39,283 bases of DNA from an uncultured Actinomycetes bacterium (GTDB lineage: Bacteria > Actinomycetota > Thermoleophilia > RBG-16-64-13): the NCBI GenBank assembly GCA_903873715.1, contig CAIQPS010000131.1:1-39283 (forward strand). Reading direction: 5' to 3'. Made by a program: the position numbers and the translations under genes. The notes below the pieces were generated by a model, which was not told where the DNA came from, made no database searches, and saw only the letters and a program-made list of their open reading frames with translations. This document shows positions 19,706 to 29,757 of this stretch, piece after piece (positions within the stretch are counted from its first letter, which is position 1; each line of letters starts with the position of its first letter).

Positions 19706-19733
19706 TTGACGCGCCACCTGCTGACGATATAGT
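19706..19733 (+). promoter_or_regulatory. Promoter for the CARDB-repeat protein gene
   Basis: TTGACG (19706-19711) and TATAGT (19728-19733) are 16 bp apart. The GTG at 19732 overlaps the -10 box and so cannot be the translation start, which supports ATG 19780. Confidence 0.75.
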
Positions 19734-19779
19734 GAAAAGTGATCGGGCGTTTGTGATCGTGGCGGCGGGGTGGTCGCTG

Positions 19780-22700
19780 ATGAGACGATCCAGGTGCTTG
19801 GCTGTGGCGATGGCGCTGACCGCTGTGGTGGCAGTATGCACCTGGTCGGCCGGGCCCGCGGCCTTCGCGGCCCCCGATCCGCAGGCGCAGGTGGTCCAGT
19901 GGGCCGACGCCGTGCAGCCGGGCAAGGTCTGGACCATCACCTTCAACTCTCCCGTGGACGTCCTCACGGTCACCCCTGACCGCGTCAGCCTGCTCGATAC
20001 CTCGGGCCAGACTCACCCGGTGCGCGTGACCACGGCCCTCGACGGCATGAGCATCTCGATAGAGCCTGTGACCGCTCTGCCGGCCGGCGACTACCGGCTA
20101 CGCGTGCTCGAGGGCATCAAAGACACCGCCGGCCAGGCTCTGCAGGCGCCCGTGGAGATCGATTTCTCCGTCACGGCGGCCTCCATCGCCGAGTCGCTGG
20201 CCGGGCAGGAGACATCCTCGAGCATCGCCCCGGCTCCGGGCCGGTTCGCGTACGGGCTCATGAGCGCGGCTCCGGTTGATCTCGCCATCTCCGGAGCCGA
20301 TCTCACGCTCCCCACCGAGGTGACCGGTGGAGCCTTCATGTCGATCCGGATGCGCGTCCACAACGCTTCACCGGGGCAGGGCCTCGCCGGTGGCAGTGTC
20401 GTGCGGGTGACGGTCGCCGGCCGGGTGGTGGACGAGATCCCCTTCTACCTCGCCGCCGGTCAGGCCGACCGGGTGGTGACCGCCAGGTACTATCTGCCGG
20501 CCGGGCCCTACAAGTCGCTCGAGGGACAGGAGCGGGCCACCGTCCAGGTGACCGCGACCGTAGACCCCTACGGCAAGACACCGGAGACCGACGAGGGCAA
20601 CAACATCGCCACCGGTTCCTTCACGGTGCGGCCAGACAACGATGTCACCATCCAGGAGACCGCCCCGCCGATGACGGTGGACGCCGCCGGGCTCTCCGTC
20701 TGGAGCACCAAGGACGACGCTGCCGACGATAGGATCCAGGCTGCCCTGCCCGGCCAGACCCTCCATCTTGCCGCCACCATCGCGTGCCCGGGCGCGGATG
20801 CGACCGAGGACATCAACGTGAAGTTCCTGGTGAACGGGGTCGTCGTCCTCGACGACGACCGCCACGTGGTCCGGCCCGCCTCGGGATCCTTCCAGGTCAC
20901 CGACGAATACGTGGTGCCGCACAACGCCACCGGTCCGTTGACCTTCCAGGTACTGCTCAGCAACGGCTCTGCCGCCGCCATCAAAGTGCCGGTGCTGCGT
21001 TGGGATACGGAGGTGAGGCCCGGCGATCTCTACTGGTCCAGCAGCACGGTGGCCGTCCCCGGCCAGCGGCTCTACCTCCACGCGGTCATAAAGAACACCT
21101 CCTGGCTGAGCCTGGGCACGTCGGACGCCAAGATCGCGTGCCGGGTGCTGGTGAACGGGACGCCTTTCTACGAGCACGAGTACACCCTCACTCTCGACCG
21201 ACTACTCATCACGGTGCCCGCCTACCTCGTGCCGCAGGACCAGACCGGGCCCGTCACCTTCACCGTGGTCACCGACCCTTACGACCAGCTGGCCGAGTCG
21301 GATGAGGGCAACAATATCGCCACCATCGAGGTGCCGCTGGTGAACACGGGCGGCTCCGACTTCGACCTGTGGGTGAGCCCGTCCGATCTCACCGCCATCG
21401 CCCGGCCCATCCTGCCGGGGTCGCGCGTGGTCTTGTCCGCCGCCATCCACAATCGGTCCAACGCCATCCCGGCCAAGGACGTCAAGGTGCATTTCCTCAT
21501 CAACGGGGCTGTGGTGGGTACCGATACCATCAGCCGCGCCTCCCTGATGCCCATGCAGGCCCGGCAGGCCACCTACACCTGGACGGCGCCGGCCGACCTC
21601 GCCGGAGTCCCGTCCTTCAAGGTGGTCATCGACCCGGATAACGAACTGTCCGAGTTCGCCGAGGACAACAACGACGCTTCCGAACAGCTGGAGCTGGCCC
21701 AGCCCGACCTGGACGCCGCGGCGCCGTGTCTGACCTGGACGCCGGCGGCGCCCGTGGCCGGCGGCTCGGTGACCCTGCGGGCGGTGATACGCAACAACGG
21801 CGCTACCGCGGTCCGCAACGCCGTCGTGCGGTTCATGGTGGACGGCGCGACGGCGGGTGATGCCACCATCCCGGTGGTTGGCGGGTCGGGGGCGGGTGTC
21901 GCGACCTTGGACTGGCGCATCCCCGACGGGTCGGCACTGGGCTCGACACCGTGGGCGGAGCTCACCGGGACTCCCGGCAAGATCCCGCTCCCCTCCCGGG
22001 TGACGCACGACTTCGCCGTCAGTGCCGTGGCCGACCCCGAGCAGCGCGTCGCCGAGAGCGACGAGGACAACAACGCGGCAGCTCCGGTCACCATGACGGT
22101 GACCGTCCCCAACGACAAGAAAGTGGTGTACGTGGGCCTCACCGACATCCTGGGTGCGGTGCCCGCTGCCACTGTGGTGCTGCAGGCGGCGGACGGGACG
22201 TCCGCCCAGACGGTCACCGGCGATGACGGCTGGTGCTGTTTCACCGGCGTGCCCGCAGGCGCGTACACGGTCTCGGTGAGCAAGGAGGGCTACAAGTCGC
22301 AGTCGGCGAGCGGCCAGGCCGGCGGCCAGTCCGCCGTGTACTACCAGAGGCTGGTGATGGAGCGCACCGGTGACGTGGTGGGGCTCACGCAGAACGACCG
22401 CGACTACGACCTGCTCTCCGACGAACTGGAACTGCTCTACGGCACGAACCCCGACGATCCGGACACCGATGACGACGGGGTCATCGACGGCAAGGACCTC
22501 TCTCCGCTCGTCGACCCCGTGGAGCCGCAGTTCGAGTCCCTGCAGAAGGTGGGGATGCTTCGCCTGGACCAGCCCGTCGCCGCCTACGGGCTGGACGGCT
22601 GGTGTGAGGTGTGGGACATGGATTGGAGCTTCAGCACCATGTCGGACACTCTGGTGCTCTCGCAGACCTACGACAGCAACGGCACCCGGGCAAGCACCAT

Positions 22701-24372
22701 GAGCCAGGACAACTACCGCTCCGCCGTGGACAGGCTCTACGCCTCCTCGGGCCTGAAGAGTTGGGCCATCAAAGACGTCACCCCGCAGGAGATCGGCTAC
22801 GAGGACACGGAACTCCGGGCCGACGGCACCCCCGAGGACAGCTGGACCTACCCGGCCGACCATTTCCACCGTACGGAGTACCGCTTCTACTACGACTACG
22901 TGACCGACTACCAGCTGGTCTCGCTCAAGAACGATAGCGAGATGCTCTATCCCTCGGCGGATTCCTTCTTCCGCTACCTGCTCTTCCCGGTGCAGCAACT
23001 CACCGGCCACACCCAGAGCTACAAGTTCCAGTTCACGCAGCCCGGCCTGGCCGACCAGATCCAAGCGAACCCCGACGGTTCGTATCACGAACTGGGTATG
23101 CAGTACGCCTTCTATGGCAGCGACCAGTTCGACGACGACTCGGACCTGCCGTTCGCCCAGGGCATGGTGCTGGTGGACACCGACGGCAGCGACCGTTTCG
23201 ACTTCGCGATCACGCTGCCGGCGGAGCTGGCCACGGTCGCGTCCGCCTACCTGAAGATCACGCCGGTGTGGGTGAGCAAAGCCGCGAACAACCCCGACGC
23301 CTCGGTGGCCCCGGTCACGCTGGCCTGGGACCTGACCGGTCTGCAGCGCGACGTCGTCTACTCCCAGGACGCCGAGGGCAACAGCTCCGTGGGCAGCGAC
23401 TACCCGGCCTCGGTGGCCGGGTTCGGGCAGCCGGTGCGAAGCCTGGCGCAGTCCCGTGCGCTCGAGAGCGACCCGCAGACCAGGGCCACGACTGACTGGT
23501 CCGGCTTCGTCACGTCCGACCCGGACGCGCCCGACGGCCAGCAGATCACCGCCGTGGAGTCCGACGTCAAGATCCTCTCCTACGTGGCCAAGGGGATCGG
23601 CGGGGCGGGCAGCGGCATCAGCGTCCTGGTGGAGAAGGTGGTCAAGAGCAAGACCAAGGCCAAGAAGATCGAGGACCTGCCCCAGACGCACTGGGTCCGG
23701 GGTGCCAAGTACAACGGCGTGCTCATGGGCTTCAAAGCGGCGAGCGGGGTGGTGACGCTGTTCTCCAACGGCAAGGACGCCTACGTGGCCTTCCGGGACG
23801 GCGACAAGATCACCGGCACCTACTACGTGGCCAAGGGCATCGTGAGCGTCGGCGAGACGGCGTACAGCATGGCGGAGGTGAGCAAGAACATCGTGGCCTG
23901 GGGCGGCAAGACCGGACGTTTCGCCAAACTGGCCAACGACAAGGTGGCCGTGGGCCTGGCGGTGGCTGTGGGCACGGTGGAGATCGGCTACAACCTGGCC
24001 AAGTGGAAGGCGACGAGCGACCCCATCAAGAAGTCCGCGTACTTCGAGAGCACCTTCACGGCGGCCATCGATACCGTGCTGGGGATGGTATCGGCGGTGT
24101 ACGGGCCGCAGATGCTGGCCTTCCAGGTGACCTGGATGGTGGGCAACGAGATCGTCTTCCGCTTCTTCGGCGGTGACGCCATCGCGTACGAGGTGGCGAA
24201 GAGCCCGGCGTCGGCCATCGTGTTCATCGCCAAGTACTGGGGGGAGGACGTGCCCTCGCAACTGGCCGAGGCGGCGTACGACGCCGTCGAGGGCCGGCTG
24301 ATGGAACTGCTGAAGGGCATGGACGAGTTCGGCAAGCCGTTCATCCCGGTGTTCGTCGATCCGGCGCTGTGA
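19780..24372 (+). CDS. Giant secreted CARDB-repeat protein with unknown helical C-terminus
   Basis: ATG 19780 follows GGCGGGGTGG and begins a Sec signal ending AAFA (1530 residues in all). An SbsA-type Ig domain (about 40-135) leads to four or five CARDB-like beta domains (about 165-775), most ending in an acidic E-x-D-E-x-N-N motif (TDEGNNIA, SDEGNNIA, SDEDNNAA). A carboxypeptidase-regulatory/CnaB-like domain follows (about 777-858), then a thrombospondin-3-like calcium loop (DPDTDDDGVIDGKD, about 895). The last 600 residues are not recognised; about 1268-1530 has long Ala/Gly-rich, partly hydrophobic helices. No LPxTG or SLH anchor is present. The next gene, an SLH lipoprotein, overlaps or abuts its stop, suggesting a joint surface assembly. 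Confidence 0.85.
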   Translation: MRRSRCLAVAMALTAVVAVCTWSAGPAAFAAPDPQAQVVQWADAVQPGKVWTITFNSPVDVLTVTPDRVSLLDTSGQTHPVRVTTALDGMSISIEPVTALPAGDYRLRVLEGIKDTAGQALQAPVEIDFSVTAASIAESLAGQETSSSIAPAPGRFAYGLMSAAPVDLAISGADLTLPTEVTGGAFMSIRMRVHNASPGQGLAGGSVVRVTVAGRVVDEIPFYLAAGQADRVVTARYYLPAGPYKSLEGQERATVQVTATVDPYGKTPETDEGNNIATGSFTVRPDNDVTIQETAPPMTVDAAGLSVWSTKDDAADDRIQAALPGQTLHLAATIACPGADATEDINVKFLVNGVVVLDDDRHVVRPASGSFQVTDEYVVPHNATGPLTFQVLLSNGSAAAIKVPVLRWDTEVRPGDLYWSSSTVAVPGQRLYLHAVIKNTSWLSLGTSDAKIACRVLVNGTPFYEHEYTLTLDRLLITVPAYLVPQDQTGPVTFTVVTDPYDQLAESDEGNNIATIEVPLVNTGGSDFDLWVSPSDLTAIARPILPGSRVVLSAAIHNRSNAIPAKDVKVHFLINGAVVGTDTISRASLMPMQARQATYTWTAPADLAGVPSFKVVIDPDNELSEFAEDNNDASEQLELAQPDLDAAAPCLTWTPAAPVAGGSVTLRAVIRNNGATAVRNAVVRFMVDGATAGDATIPVVGGSGAGVATLDWRIPDGSALGSTPWAELTGTPGKIPLPSRVTHDFAVSAVADPEQRVAESDEDNNAAAPVTMTVTVPNDKKVVYVGLTDILGAVPAATVVLQAADGTSAQTVTGDDGWCCFTGVPAGAYTVSVSKEGYKSQSASGQAGGQSAVYYQRLVMERTGDVVGLTQNDRDYDLLSDELELLYGTNPDDPDTDDDGVIDGKDLSPLVDPVEPQFESLQKVGMLRLDQPVAAYGLDGWCEVWDMDWSFSTMSDTLVLSQTYDSNGTRASTMSQDNYRSAVDRLYASSGLKSWAIKDVTPQEIGYEDTELRADGTPEDSWTYPADHFHRTEYRFYYDYVTDYQLVSLKNDSEMLYPSADSFFRYLLFPVQQLTGHTQSYKFQFTQPGLADQIQANPDGSYHELGMQYAFYGSDQFDDDSDLPFAQGMVLVDTDGSDRFDFAITLPAELATVASAYLKITPVWVSKAANNPDASVAPVTLAWDLTGLQRDVVYSQDAEGNSSVGSDYPASVAGFGQPVRSLAQSRALESDPQTRATTDWSGFVTSDPDAPDGQQITAVESDVKILSYVAKGIGGAGSGISVLVEKVVKSKTKAKKIEDLPQTHWVRGAKYNGVLMGFKAASGVVTLFSNGKDAYVAFRDGDKITGTYYVAKGIVSVGETAYSMAEVSKNIVAWGGKTGRFAKLANDKVAVGLAVAVGTVEIGYNLAKWKATSDPIKKSAYFESTFTAAIDTVLGMVSAVYGPQMLAFQVTWMVGNEIVFRFFGGDAIAYEVAKSPASAIVFIAKYWGEDVPSQLAEAAYDAVEGRLMELLKGMDEFGKPFIPVFVDPAL

Positions 24373-24383
24373 TGGGAGGCGCT

Positions 24384-25220
24384 GTGAACTGGTCGCGGAT
24401 GCGGAGACGGGCGTCGCCGGCGCAGCGGTGCACGGAGCCGCTGAGGGCGCGGGCGGCGCGGGCGCCCGATCGGCCGGCGCAGGACCGGGCGCAGGTGACA
24501 CCACCGGTGACGCCACTGGTGACAGTGAGTGGCGCGGACGGCCGCGCGGCCCGGGCCGCCGCTCCGGCAGCCGCGCCGTTCGCCGCTGTGGTGCTGGGCG
24601 CCGCGACGATCGCGTGCGCCGCGCTGCTGCTGGGGCTGGGACTCGCCGGCTGTGAGGACGAGGGCGGGGCGACTACCACCACCCAGGCGAACACCGCCGT
24701 GACTTTCAGTGACATGGGTGCGGCAGACCCGGCCCTGCCGGCCGCGCTCTCAGCCTCCGGCTACGGGCTGCTGACCGAGGACCAGTCGGGGCGCTTCCGC
24801 CCTGCAGACCCTGTGAGCCGCGCTGAATTCGCGATGCTCGTCGCTGAAGTCCTCGGCTTGGAATCCGCCGCGCCGGCGTCCCCCACCTTCGTCGATGTGC
24901 CCCAGTGGCACCCGGCATATGGAGCGGTCGAGAGTCTGGCGACGTACTTCCCCGACTCGGCCGGTGGCACAGCGGACGCGGCCGGGAAGACCTTCCGACC
25001 CGATGAGGCTGTTGGCGCAGCCGAAGCCGTCCAGACCCTGACGGCAGCGCTGCAGAAGGAAGCTCCCGACCGGGCTACGGCATTGAGCGCCGCGCTGGCA
25101 GGGGTGGCCGGCGGGGATGCGCCGCTCACGCGGGCAGAGGCGGCGCGGTTGCTCGTCGCATTGGTGAAGGCCGCGCAGCCACCTCCGGGCGACGCGCTGA
25201 GACCCGTGGGCGTGAACTGA
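24384..25220 (+). CDS. SLH-domain lipoprotein
   Basis: GTG 24384 has GGGAGG 4 bp upstream; GTG 24369, ATG 24372 and ATG 24399 are alternatives. A polar N-terminus of about 60-70 residues precedes a hydrophobic segment ending LAGC, a lipobox; such a long leader is odd and a later start is possible. Two SLH-type modules follow (VTFSDMG ... GRFRPADPVSRAEFAMLVAE; TFVDVPQWHPAYGAVESLAT ... FRPDEAVGAAEAVQTL) and a weaker third. SLH domains bind secondary cell-wall polymers, and a lipid anchor would tether the membrane to that layer. It starts 11 bp after the CARDB gene stop and is probably co-translated. Confidence 0.8.
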   Translation: MNWSRMRRRASPAQRCTEPLRARAARAPDRPAQDRAQVTPPVTPLVTVSGADGRAARAAAPAAAPFAAVVLGAATIACAALLLGLGLAGCEDEGGATTTTQANTAVTFSDMGAADPALPAALSASGYGLLTEDQSGRFRPADPVSRAEFAMLVAEVLGLESAAPASPTFVDVPQWHPAYGAVESLATYFPDSAGGTADAAGKTFRPDEAVGAAEAVQTLTAALQKEAPDRATALSAALAGVAGGDAPLTRAEAARLLVALVKAAQPPPGDALRPVGVN

Positions 25221-25360: not shown

Positions 25361-25432
25361 GCCCCCGTAGCTCAGGGGATAGAGCAGAGGTTTCCTAAAC
25401 CTCGAGCGTAGGTTCGAGTCCTACCGGGGGCA
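25361..25432 (+). tRNA. tRNA-Arg (anticodon CCU)
   Basis: A complete cloverleaf can be folded: acceptor GCCCCCG/CGGGGGC, D arm GCTC/GAGC, anticodon stem GAGGT/ACCTC with loop TTCCTAA (anticodon CCT), four-base variable loop, T arm GTAGG/CCTAC with TTCGAGT. Discriminator A; CCA is not encoded. The 3' half from the anticodon loop on is duplicated at 26688-26731. Confidence 0.95.
25389..25432 (+). repeat. att-type repeat, copy A, inside tRNA-Arg
   Basis: These 44 bases, from the anticodon stem-loop to the discriminator, match 26688-26731 at 43 positions. The single mismatch is A37 (25397) against G (26696). The first eight bases, GGTTTCCT, are also found at 25631-25638. Confidence 0.9.
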
Positions 25433-25755
25433 CTAGATGATTTGCCTGCATACGACGGTTTTCCGAGTCACCCCTCCACTCCTCTGGACAGCCCCAAACG
25501 GCCGTTCGACCCTACCGTTACCTCTACCCAGGTGATACTCAGTGATACTCAGTGGATGGAATATCACCGATTGCAGGCTATTTTCGGTACGCCAAAGTAC
25601 TGGGTGATACACCATGGACGGCTGAACCGGGGTTTCCTATTCTCCGCCCGAGCCTCTCGCGAGACCCGGCGGCACCCGGCTCCTATTCGAAGCGTTGCAT
25701 TGGTATCCCGCGCGGGAGGGGCGCGTCAGCATCCCCGCGGGTGGGATCGTCCCTA
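25433..25755. other. Intergenic left arm of the tRNA-Arg integration scar
   Basis: The 323 bp hold no convincing gene; the frame 25442-25759 lacks a ribosome site. The DNA is less GC-rich than its neighbours. GTGATACTCA occurs in tandem at 25532-25541 and 25542-25551, GGTGATAC recurs at 25603-25610, and the inverse TATCACC is at 25562-25568. The second core copy (25631-25638) lies near the end. The pattern fits arm-type integrase sites next to a core. Confidence 0.6.
25617..25638 (+). repeat. att-type repeat, copy B
   Basis: These 22 bases are identical to 26674-26695. They end in GGTTTCCT, the tRNA anticodon-loop core, but are followed by sequence unlike the tRNA. Copies B and C are 1057 bp apart and flank the lipoprotein gene. 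Confidence 0.85.
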
Positions 25756-26460
25756 CTAGTCTCCTGTGAGTGACACGTCGGCCAGCGAGATCTCGGTGAT
25801 GACGTGGGAAGCGATGGCCGTGTTGACCGCGAGCGTGGCGGCGTCGTCGGCGTCCATGGAGAAGGCGACGAGTATGTAGTAATCCTGGAAGAGCACGCTG
25901 ACGTCCATGTTGTTCTCGTTGTAGAAGGACTGCAGCGATTTGGCCCCCGAGCCCGGCAGATCGACAGGAGCGACGGGGATACCCTTCTTCGATTCCTCGA
26001 AGGCCCACTTTGCGTTGTGCCCCAGTTTCAGTTCGGCAGACGGGATCAGCGCGTTCTGGGTGAGATACAGCATGGCGTAGACGACGGTGCCGCCCTCGAA
26101 CTCGTACTGGTATTCGGCATAGATCTCGCCCGTGTCGGTGATCTTGCTCGAGACGTCGATGATGGAAGCAGTCACACCCACCATGCTCGAGGCCTCTTCG
26201 GCCGTGAGCAGCTCCTCGGGCACGAGAACCTGTTCGAGTGCACCGGACGCAGAGGGGTCGACGGTGGTCGCCGGGCCCATCTGGGTGTCGGCCTCGGTGG
26301 TGGAGGACGAGGTATCCGCGTGCACCAGTCCGGCGGACGAAGTGGTGCCGGCCGCGGTGCTGGCGGTGCTGCCGACGGTGCCGTTACACGCGGTGAAGGT
26401 CGCGAGGACGAGGGCCAGGAGAAGGAGAAGACAGGGTGCGAGGTAGCGCGATCGGCTCAT
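25756..26460 (-). CDS. Putative lipoprotein of unknown function
   Basis: ATG 26460 begins SRSRYLAPCLLLLLALVLAT and a weak lipobox (FTAC); AAAAGGA lies upstream. An earlier ATG at 26505 is possible. A Thr/Ser-rich linker (about 25-65) leads to a folded domain of about 150 residues (LLTAEEASSMVGVTASIID, YAEYQYEFEGGTVVYAMLYL, FEESKKGIPVAPVDLPGSGA, VLFQDYYILVAFSMD). The shape recalls small secreted proteins of the DUF3558-like type, but I cannot assign a family. It is the only gene between copies B and C of the tRNA-derived repeat, so it may be the cargo of a small integrated element. Confidence 0.75.
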   Translation of the reverse strand: MSRSRYLAPCLLLLLALVLATFTACNGTVGSTASTAAGTTSSAGLVHADTSSSTTEADTQMGPATTVDPSASGALEQVLVPEELLTAEEASSMVGVTASIIDVSSKITDTGEIYAEYQYEFEGGTVVYAMLYLTQNALIPSAELKLGHNAKWAFEESKKGIPVAPVDLPGSGAKSLQSFYNENNMDVSVLFQDYYILVAFSMDADDAATLAVNTAIASHVITEISLADVSLTGD

Positions 26461-26944
26461 GATGTCGGTGTCCTTTTCGGTGGAGCATCGGGACTCAACA
26501 GACATTCGGTTGCGCAGGCCTCATTTCGTCGGCCGCAGCCCCGCACGATACCCACCGCCTCGCGCAAAAGAAAGCGGGCCGCCACACCGTGTACTCGAAG
26601 AGAGTACGGGGTGATGGCCGGGCGGTCCCAGACGGTGGCCGGGCGGTCGCGGGCGATGCCGGCAGTCGCCACCGACGGCTGAACCGGGGTTTCCTGAACC
26701 TCGAGCGTAGGTTCGAGTCCTACCGGGGGCATCACAGGCTCTTGGAGAACGCGCGGCGCGGTGTGCCCAACGACGCCGGCCGCTTGACGGTTCGCGGCTT
26801 CGTGTCCGGGCCGACGGATAGTATGTAGATGCCGAGACGGTGGGCACTCCCGCCGAGGCCGAGACTCCCACATGAAGCCCCTCCTTCTTCTCCGGCCTCC
26901 TCGGCACTCGCAGCTCTCCCCGCCTACCCACAAGGAGGTCTGTC
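26461..26944. other. Intergenic right arm of the tRNA-Arg scar
   Basis: No convincing gene in 484 bp. The stretch TGGCCGGGCGGTC occurs at 26615-26627 and 26636-26648 (period 21), GTACTC/GAGTAC forms a small inverted repeat (26591-26607), and the tRNA-derived copy C lies at 26674-26731. The minus-strand frame reading VGLEPT here is the antisense of that tRNA fragment. Confidence 0.6.
26674..26731 (+). repeat. att-type repeat, copy C, tRNA-Arg 3' fragment
   Basis: The first 22 bases equal copy B. From 26688 the sequence equals the tRNA-Arg 3' half (43 of 44 positions to 26731). The 5' half of the tRNA is missing, so it is a remnant, not a tRNA gene; this is what an attR site left by integration at tRNA-Arg would look like. 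Confidence 0.88.
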
Positions 26945-27628
26945 ATGGCCCGCCACTTCGACTACTTCGACGACTGGAAGACCGAGATCCTCGAGTGCCC
27001 GAAATGCGGCTGGAAGGGGACCTTCGAGGAGGGTGATGTCGGCTACTACGAGCAGCTCATGGACTCCTCCTGTCCGACATGCTCGTACCCCAACGATCCC
27101 ATGCTGGCCATCGTCTCCTATCCCACTCATGACGAGGTGGAGGCCAACCTCGACAAGCTCTCGGTCCGGGAGCGGAGCGCCTATCGCCAGCGGAAGCGGC
27201 ACGAGCAGCTATGGGAGACGTACTGCCTGCGGAGACCAGAGCAACTCCCCGACCTGGAGGGCGATGAGATCACGCTCATCTGGGACATGGAAGACGTGGG
27301 GGACGATTCTTGGACGGTGATCCGTCACGGCGACAGGGTCGTGTGGAGGGAACCGGCGTGGTATGAGTGCTATCCCCGCTTCGACGCGATGTTGTACCTC
27401 CTCAAGCGCAAGTACGGGCGCCGCCTGGTGGACGTCGAGCCGACCTGCGGGTCGTGGGGGTGGCTGTGCGGCGATCGGCTCGCCTCGATCCGCTGGGTGG
27501 ACGGCTGGCGGGCGAAGTTGAGGGAGACCACCCCCGAGCCCGAGCCCGAGGCCCGATCGGCTCCGCGGCGGCCGTGGTCGCGGATGAACGACTTCTTGCG
27601 AAGTCTCTGGCATTTCTTCCAGCGGTGA
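26945..27628 (+). CDS. Zinc-ribbon protein of unknown function
   Basis: ATG 26945 follows AAGGAGG. The 227-residue cytosolic protein starts with a zinc ribbon (CPKCGWKGTF, then CPTC about 25 residues on). The middle is charged (DEVEANLDKLSVRERSAYRQ), and an acidic segment follows (DEITLIWDMEDVGDDSW). A second Cys pair occurs in CGSWGWLCGDRLAS, before a Pro/Glu-rich linker and basic C-terminus. I do not recognise a function. It lies just outside the right end of the tRNA-Arg scar and is convergent with the glycosidase. Two small palindromes (27638-27649 and 27653-27664) separate them. Confidence 0.8.
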   Translation: MARHFDYFDDWKTEILECPKCGWKGTFEEGDVGYYEQLMDSSCPTCSYPNDPMLAIVSYPTHDEVEANLDKLSVRERSAYRQRKRHEQLWETYCLRRPEQLPDLEGDEITLIWDMEDVGDDSWTVIRHGDRVVWREPAWYECYPRFDAMLYLLKRKYGRRLVDVEPTCGSWGWLCGDRLASIRWVDGWRAKLRETTPEPEPEARSAPRRPWSRMNDFLRSLWHFFQR

Positions 27629-27678: not shown

Positions 27679-29757
27679 CTACTTGTAGACCTCCAGCTCG
27701 AACAGCCGGATCCGCTCCGTCGCCTGGTTCCAGGCAGTGGAGTACATCCGTACATACCGTGCCGTCGCCGGTGAGAAGGTGATGGTGTCGGTGCCGCCGT
27801 TGCCGGCGAGGTCCTCGAAAACCGGGATCCAGGTGGCATTGTCGGCGGAGACCTCGATCCTGTACTTCGTTGCGTAGTAGCCGCCCCACTTCAAGACCAC
27901 TTTCGAGAGCGGCTGGGCACTCCCCAGATCGACGACGATCCATTCCGAAGGCCCGCCGTTGCTCTTGCGGGTGCGCCAGTAGGTGGCCCCGTCGCCGTCG
28001 ACGGCCTTGCTGCCGTTCTGGCTGAGGCTGTAGTAGGTGGAGACGGTCGCCGGCCGGCCGAGCGCCAGGTTTCCGGACCCGTCCGGCGGGGTCGTGGCCG
28101 ATGCGGCAGCGCTTGGCCCGGAGACGTTGCCGGCCGCGTCGTAGGCCTTGACGGAATAGGCGTAGGTCGTGCTGGGCGCCAGACCGCTGTCGGCGTAGCT
28201 TGTGCCGGTGCACGTGCCGACCTGGACTCCTCCCCGGAAGATCCGATAGCCCGACACGCCCACGTCGTCGGTCGCCGCCGTCCACGAGAGATCGATCCGG
28301 CTCGACGATATCGCGGTGGCCGTCAATCCGGTGGGTGCGGTCGGAGGCTGGGTGTCGCTGCCACTCCCGCCGAAGGTATCCGTATACGTGCCGGCCGCCG
28401 GGTAGGTCTTGCTGTAGGTGTTCCCGGCGATCACGACGTTCAGCGTGAAGGGGCTGTCTGTCGACACGGTGACGACGGCCGGGCCGGCCGCGGAGGCGCG
28501 CCGCGCGGCCGTGACCGAGACGATGTTGTCACCGAAATGCAGGTTGCGCATGCCGTTGGGCTCGGTGAGGAACATGTGCCAGGTCAGCGAGTCGTGAGGG
28601 GCGTCGGCGCTGAGGCCGATGAGGAAGTCGACGACGCCGACCAGTACGGCCGCACTGCTCCAGGTGAGGTTCGTGCCCCCGTAGATCCGGGGCTGGTCAG
28701 GGTAGTAGTTCTCGCCCAACGCCCCGGAGGTCGCATAGCTCTGGTAGGTCATGTCCAGGTCCCGCCAGGCCAACTGATGCGCCTGCTCCCAATAGCCGTA
28801 GAAGGACAGCGCCTTTTCGGCGGTGATGACGTCCGGCGGCCAGGTCGGCCCGTTCCACTTGCTGCCGCTCATGTAGTACGAGCTGTCTGCGGACACGGAA
28901 GGCACCGGATGCGCGCGCCAGAACTCGTCGGGATCGGTGATGTGCGCGACCATCGCCGCGGCCTGGCTCGGACTGCAGGCCCGGGCGATCAACGTCCAGA
29001 ACGCCTGGGGTGAGTGCGTGTTGGTCATGTAGGCGTGACTGGCCGCGTCGAGGGTCTCGAAGTAGCCGGTGGCCGGGTTCCAATGGAGGCGGTCGATGTC
29101 GGAGACGAGCGTGGCGTAGGCGCTGTTCATGGCCGTCTGCGCCGCCGTGTCGCCTGCCACCTCGGCGATCTTCGCCGTGTAGTAGGCGGCAGCGGCCATC
29201 TGGGAGATTAGGTCGATCCGGGCATAGCCGTCGTCCACGGTGCTCTCCCGCCCGCTGCCGAACTTGCCGGCCCAGGTCCAGGAACCGTCCGCACGGTGGT
29301 AGGTCGGGCTGTTGTAGAGGTAATTGAAGTAGTCGACCAGGTGGCGAAGCACCGTCCGGCCGTTGATGACCTTGGTGAAGCGGGCCTTGTCCCCGGTCAC
29401 CAGATAATGCTCCCACTCGGTCCAGGCGAAGAAGGGCGGGTTGATCTCGGAGTTGAATCCGCCGTTCTTCTCGCCGAGCTTCTGGCCCATGAAGCCGTTG
29501 GCCAGTTGGAAGTAGTAGAAGTTGTTCTGGGTCTCGATGGTGGGGAACTGGTAGAAGCCCCACTTGTTCCCGATGGTCCCGTAGAGCGTGTCCCACTGGA
29601 AGATGGAGTTGCTGGCGCCGAAGCCCTCGTCCACCCACCAAGGGCTGAAGAACTTGGGGTTGTAGAGGATCAGCCGCTTCTCGTTCGCCCACGCGAAGTC
29701 GTACATCTGCACCCAGCCCGGATGGTCCCCGAGGACCGGCACGGGCAGGTCGGCCAA
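27679..29757 (-). pseudogene. Glycoside hydrolase (MGH1-like) with FnIII and F5/8C domains, 5'-truncated
   Basis: The frame is 692 residues from TTG 29757 and closed upstream by a stop at 29800-29802. No signal peptide, ribosome site or family N-terminus precedes the first motif (LPVPVLGDHPGW). The (alpha/alpha)6 catalytic domain (1 to about 385) resembles clan GH-G/MGH1-like enzymes: FQWDTLYG, GRESTVDDGYARIDL (Asp175/176, candidate acid) and GENYYPDQPRIYGG (Glu349, candidate base). A beta domain (about 385-480), one fibronectin III domain (about 485-575) and an F5/8C/CBM32 domain (about 578-692) follow. Such enzymes are normally exported, so the N-terminal export signal and probably several hundred residues are missing. 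It may be inactive. Confidence 0.75.

Follow-up and report, generated by a model that had tools for sequence, protein, structure and literature searches.

Probable fossil recombination joints at the tRNA-Arg(CCU) gene of an uncultured actinobacterium, one of which appears to lie in a broken cobalamin riboswitch

The region that starts with the tRNA-Arg(CCU) gene in the window (the whole stretch of DNA analyzed here, 39,283 nt, which is all of contig C131 in a draft genome of 169 contigs and 3.33 Mb, 96.9% complete and probably a MAG) is best read, with a probability that we put at about 70%, as the fossil of tyrosine-integrase recombination in the anticodon loop of this tRNA. The body of the element would have been lost, a third copy of the core would be a joint at a secondary site in a cobalamin riboswitch, and a host-like segment would have been caught between the joints. 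From left to right, the order is the 5' half of the tRNA, the core (O), a P' arm of 0.18 kb, P, O, the 5' end of a riboswitch (reversed), a lipoprotein gene (reversed), P, O and the old 3' half of the tRNA (Table 1). One of the three joints appears to sit inside a broken vitamin-B12 riboswitch, while the tRNA gene itself stays functional. At the level of sequence, the locus offers repeats, a shared core, arm features, homology to a riboswitch and, in relatives, use of the same site.

Table 1. Features of the tRNA-Arg(CCU) region, in positions of the window
Feature	Position	Strand	Basis
tRNA-Arg(CCU) gene; 3' half = P' side of attL	25361..25433	+	ARAGORN; Rfam RF00005, 67.4 bits
Core O (GGTTTCCT), copy 1, anticodon stem-loop; hybrid attL	25389..25396	+	sequence; repeat D1
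Probable P' arm of former element, about 184 bp	25434..25616	+	low GC, GCCTGCAT motif, GTGAYAY sites
P-O copy 1 = GACGGCTGAACCGG + core GGTTTCCT; middle junction	25617..25638	+	repeat analysis, genome search
Cobalamin riboswitch 5' end (~25639-25692) with upstream leader homology (to 25728), cut at the core	25639..25728	-	paralogue on C136
Putative lipoprotein gene; signal and lipobox ...LATFTAC	25756..26505	-	ORF
Two imperfect 21-nt direct repeats beside right P-O; possible arm sites (weak)	26615..26656	+	repeat D4
P-O copy 2, P side of attR	26674..26695	+	repeat analysis, genome search
Displaced tRNA-Arg 3' half, B' of attR	26688..26731	+	43/44 identical to gene

The repeats were already noticed in a sequence-only reading of this DNA, and they are borne out. 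Indeed, the tRNA 3' half at 25389-25432 recurs at 26688-26731 with a single mismatch (43 of 44 nt, A to G at 26696), the right core reading TTTCCTG instead of TTTCCTA. As in an att site, the 3' part of a tRNA gene, here from the anticodon loop to the 3' end, is duplicated at the far end of the locus with the crossover inside the gene. The third core, at 25631-25638, is preceded by the same 14 bases as the right one, as had been claimed, and the resulting 22-mer GACGGCTGAACCGGGGTTTCCT (14 nt plus the core) is found at 25617-25638 and 26674-26695 with no mismatch between the copies, which are spaced by 1057 nt. The same reading had advised a search for other copies of this repeat, which came back empty: none was found in the whole 3.33-Mb genome with up to three mismatches allowed, none in IMG/VR as an exact match, and among 299 genomes of the class nothing beyond scattered 3-mismatch hits. 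In 25361-26731, 27 repeated 16-mers were observed vs a mean of 0 in dinucleotide shuffles, and chance repeats are ruled out by these shuffles together with the genome and 299-genome searches. Identity between the two P-O copies stops after 22 nt, so they probably stem from the P ends of related elements, or from copies of a single one. ARAGORN also calls a tRNA-Gly(ACC) at 26635-26731, which we rejected as a false gene, a chimera of P-O/element sequence and the tRNA-Arg 3' fragment that the Rfam tRNA model rejects.

Regarding the ~184 bp that follow the tRNA, they look like the attachment (P') arm of an element, judging from composition and motifs. Their GC content is 52% vs 66-68% around, the GCCTGCAT motif lies at 25444-25451, and candidate arm-type repeats of the form GTGAYAY are found near the core at 25532, 25542, 25561 (minus strand) and 25604, which makes four sites in 80 bp vs 20 in the whole 39-kb window. 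A CCTGCAT-like motif stands 10-20 nt past the end of the tRNA in the window and in three relatives (G004, G010 and G011), with CCTGTAT in a fourth (G017), and at the second tRNA-Arg locus of G004 three GTGAYAY sites are packed into 43 bp, equally far from the tRNA. No parent ICE or IME was found, the P' arm motif being common to elements of the relatives. A 105-aa ORF at 25442-25759 was considered as an excisionase remnant and rejected, as its nucleotide matches in relatives fall in unrelated genes.

The comparison set comprised 17 genomes of the same family, none from the same genus, and the named relatives are uncultured Actinomycetota assemblies; a contig scan with the neighboring nitroreductase for a genus-mate found none. 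The gene order 5' of tRNA-Arg(CCU) (window ~8.2-18.6 kb, several genes, then those for an HtrA-like protease and a nitroreductase-like protein) is kept wholly or partly in G001, G008, G010, G016 and G017, whereas 3' of the tRNA there is no positional synteny between relatives. The tRNA gene is therefore an old chromosomal landmark whose 3' side is an integration hotspot. In the window, the nitroreductase gene is separated from the tRNA by genes for a CARDB/Big_5 surface protein of 1546 aa and for a protein with an SLH domain (19732-25220); as relatives have only 0.2-1.3 kb from the nitroreductase gene to tRNA-Arg(CCU), this stretch is an insertion or lineage-specific gain 5' of the tRNA. Just past the att region, at 27679-29757 on the minus strand, lies a trehalase/GH63-like glycosidase gene with fn3 and F5/8 type C domains, a position not common to relatives.

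Comparison of tRNA-Arg(CCU) loci, another proposal of the sequence-only reading, indicates that the same site has been used elsewhere in the family. In G017, from a sister genus, the tRNA flanks an 11.4-kb island (L047:5540-16993, on G017:C8) whose attL and attR share 44 identical nt and whose attR switches at GGTTTCCT; it encodes an AEP-TOTE primase-helicase and a Ser/Thr protein kinase, looks like a defense island and has no PF00589 match on its contig. In G004, on a contig (C130) represented by the same sequence as L108, a tyrosine integrase (PF00589 and PF14659) ends ~100 bp from tRNA-Arg(CCU), and tandem arm repeats TTGACAACCA lie between the two. G011 has an integrase 48% identical to this one at 3.1 kb from the tRNA, with a degraded copy in G010. 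An integrase family is thus known at tRNA-Arg(CCU), with arm repeats that differ from those of the window, and its viral relatives are distant matches only. Moreover, G013 and G019 have copies of the tRNA 5' half (39-42 nt) upstream of the whole gene (L048:1169-1210 and L049:3241-3279), which implies that this anticodon loop has served elements of either polarity. Use of the site is independently supported by the G017 island and by an integrase beside the tRNA in another relative. The att layout first proposed (B-O-P' at the tRNA, P-O-X in the middle and P-O-B' at the right) finds support in the sequence as well as in relatives that use the same tRNA and crossover point.

What is new here concerns the X side of the middle core, where the minus strand carries the 5' end of a cobalamin riboswitch. 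When the genome was searched with 25639-26945, a single meaningful match emerged elsewhere, C136:26394-26462 (E 1.6e-4 genome-wide), which begins at the first base after the core and belongs to a cobalamin riboswitch (RF00174, 104.8 bits). The window fragment is 77% identical to the 5' domain and leader of this paralogue over 81 nt, in an alignment that takes in the core (TTTCCTATTCTCC vs TTCCCTATTCTCC); with the core left out, the local score is 61 vs at most 36 in 2000 dinucleotide shuffles and 47 in random segments of the window. In both the fragment and the paralogue, a P2-like hairpin lies directly 5' of AGAAUAGG. Rfam gave no RF00174 match in the window, even with the ~60-nt fragment alone, and no complete aptamer is present; a piece of roughly one third of an aptamer may well go undetected, and the assignment to the 5' domain of RF00174 hence rests on the paralogue, the one sequence that aligns at the nucleotide level, and on the shuffle test. 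A riboswitch running on across the core in either flank was rejected, as the 3' domain is absent from both flanks by eye and by Rfam. The paralogue, at 26412 of its contig, lies 5' of an ABC transporter operon and after a purH-like gene, and the genome has three complete cobalamin riboswitches in total, all of them in a 12-kb stretch of that contig (G000:C136:15284-26635).

As the X side is a riboswitch 5' end cut at the core, we interpret the middle core as a joint that an integrase made at a secondary site, inferring an integrase, and not chance microhomology, as its cause; such a joint requires recombination at a second site. The riboswitches of this type in G009 and G014 carry AGAATAGGAAATC (in relatives, TAGGAAATC), whose opposite strand gives TTTCCTA, the seven bases of the tRNA-Arg(CCU) anticodon loop. 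It is conceivable, though we hold it only tentatively and consider it less probable than its contrary, that an integrase with its main site in this anticodon loop recognizes cobalamin riboswitches too, as secondary sites, through the shared 7-base overlap and thereby cuts, deletes or carries along B12-regulated host genes.

The integrase itself was not found. As the sequence-only reading had stated, the 1.3 kb contain no integrase: in 25361-26731, no integrase or recombinase was found by ORF or profile searches, the only ORF retained having a lipoprotein-like product, and no Pfam, PHROG or NCBIfam match to integrase or transfer genes was obtained inside the segment. That reading had also advised looking elsewhere for an integrase whose attP holds the core. 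All PF00589 matches of the genome are on other contigs, namely two Xer-like proteins and one P4-type integrase (PF13356), and no cognate integrase was found, with no member of the tRNA-Arg(CCU) family (A2) in this genome at E<=1e-30. The P4-type integrase gene (Arm-DNA-bind_3; L046:6040-7432, on G000:C165) lies beside a tRNA-Thr(TGT) and runs off the contig end. Four GTGAYAY sites, the motif of the P' arm in the window, are found between that tRNA and the integrase gene; this likeness was dropped as evidence, since relatives of the integrase do not keep these repeats. As a helper in trans, the P4-type enzyme was rejected: nine relatives, where a tRNA adjoins, are at tRNA-Thr or tRNA-Lys and never at tRNA-Arg. 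No suitable tyrosine integrase having been found, we take the locus for a fossil, with the reservation that ~3% of the genome is missing. Of the two fates first considered, that of a remnant is therefore retained and mobilization in trans is not, the only non-Xer integrase being the P4-type one at tRNA-Thr and the A2 family being absent; present mobility of the locus is unsupported.

The foremost competing explanation, also raised in the sequence-only reading, is that two small integrase-less elements lie in tandem, a 0.2-kb stub followed, at its attR, by a 1.06-kb lipoprotein cassette (circle junction P-O-X) movable in trans. Two exact P-O copies spaced by 1057 nt are what a circle integrated through its core could leave, and tandems of CIMEs and IMEs at attR are a documented pattern (PMC5704250). 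However, the supposed cassette has a host-like GC content (63-71%) and a single GTGAYAY site, near the end of the gene, its left end is a truncated riboswitch with no attachment arm, and no suitable integrase was found in the genome. Its lipoprotein, which has no Pfam family and whose predicted structure (mean pLDDT 45) allows no fold inference, has a weak paralogue in the same genome (G000:C80, about 30% identical) and no phage or plasmid relatives that we could find. Host-like composition, a genomic paralogue and the lack of phage or plasmid relatives favor caught host DNA over the cargo of a mini-element, and with X being a riboswitch cut at the core, the tandem is not established and we regard it as rather unlikely.

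Still less probable is an ordinary duplication or illegitimate recombination, with no integrase, as the origin of the second tRNA 3' end and of the repeated 22-nt sequence. Such an event could alone yield the 44-nt copy, and the riboswitch joint and the core have only ~6-7 nt in common, an overlap compatible with microhomology. Against it, three joints all switch at one 8-nt anticodon-loop core, an AT-richer, arm-like segment follows the tRNA, and the same crossover and 44-nt copy accompany the 11.4-kb island in another genus, with an integrase at the tRNA in a third. An assembly chimera at short repeats, as might be feared in a draft of 169 contigs, is the least credible, since repeats of 22 and 44 nt are below usual assembly k-mers and a misjoin does not produce the att logic of three joints.

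For the favored reading, a decayed tyrosine-integrase element, the order of events is one that we infer, and several histories fit, among which the data choose none. An element would have integrated in the anticodon loop, so that the tRNA 3' half was rebuilt (attL, 25389) and the old one pushed downstream (attR, 26688); its body, including the integrase, would later have been lost, with ~184 bp of P' arm kept. The third core would be an integrase-made joint between the P end of an element and a secondary site in the cobalamin riboswitch, whose conserved box (GGGAA/GGAAA) would supply, on the opposite strand, TTTCCTA. The 1.05-kb segment (riboswitch 5' end and lipoprotein gene) would then be host-like DNA trapped between joints, either because a tandem of two related elements underwent an integrase-made deletion ending in the riboswitch, followed by loss of the first element's interior, or because a chromosomal piece with riboswitch and lipoprotein gene was captured by recombination at the same core. 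Under this history, the empty site would end ...GGTTTCCTAAACCTCG...GGGGGCA and pass directly into the sequence from 26732 on. Several points speak against the reading: the riboswitch fragment has no Rfam match and a single paralogue that aligns, the 3' half of the riboswitch and the cognate integrase were not found, the right core has TTTCCTG in place of TTTCCTA, the integrase family known at this tRNA has other arm repeats, and the assembly is a draft.

The locus is a small case of a known kind, a CIME-like tandem remnant being the closest. As described where PMC3218068 cites Pavlovic 2004, a CIME keeps attL and attR and has lost integrase and transfer genes. The locus likewise retains attL and attR, with no integration or transfer genes inside and a composite att at the 3' end of a tRNA gene; unlike a CIME, it has almost no cargo (a 0.18-kb arm and 1.05 kb) and a riboswitch at its inner joint. 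It has no excision and integration genes of its own, as an IME would, 25361-26731 being devoid of a recombinase. CIMEs and accretion in tandem at attR have been described (PMC5704250), and actinobacterial ICEs are known in tRNA genes, such as Frankia Fean6303 with three direct repeats at tRNA-Arg and the tandem Sav3708/Sav3728 at a tRNA-Arg (PMC3218068). These share with our locus three att-like repeats around tRNA-Arg and tyrosine-integrase chemistry, but carry int, rep and tra genes, of which it has none. The G017 island has the same tRNA, the same core, a 44-nt identical repeat and no integrase on its contig, but differs in its 11.4 kb with TOTE-type primase-helicase and protein kinase, its P side and its arm repeats. 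Finally, in Vibrio cholerae, GI-23 is inserted in a cobalamin riboswitch upstream of btuB (PMC12409358). A cobalamin riboswitch is there also the insertion point of an island, although that riboswitch holds a 25-kb island, whereas here a riboswitch 5' fragment joins the P end of an element of the tRNA site.

In this family of uncultured Actinomycetota, the tRNA-Arg(CCU) gene is a hotspot at which integration has taken place, and the locus is an example of deep element decay in which the recombination joints can still be read. The double use of tRNA and riboswitch is the only surprising part: if the riboswitch joint is the product of an integrase, two conserved non-coding RNA motifs would be alternative targets of one enzyme.
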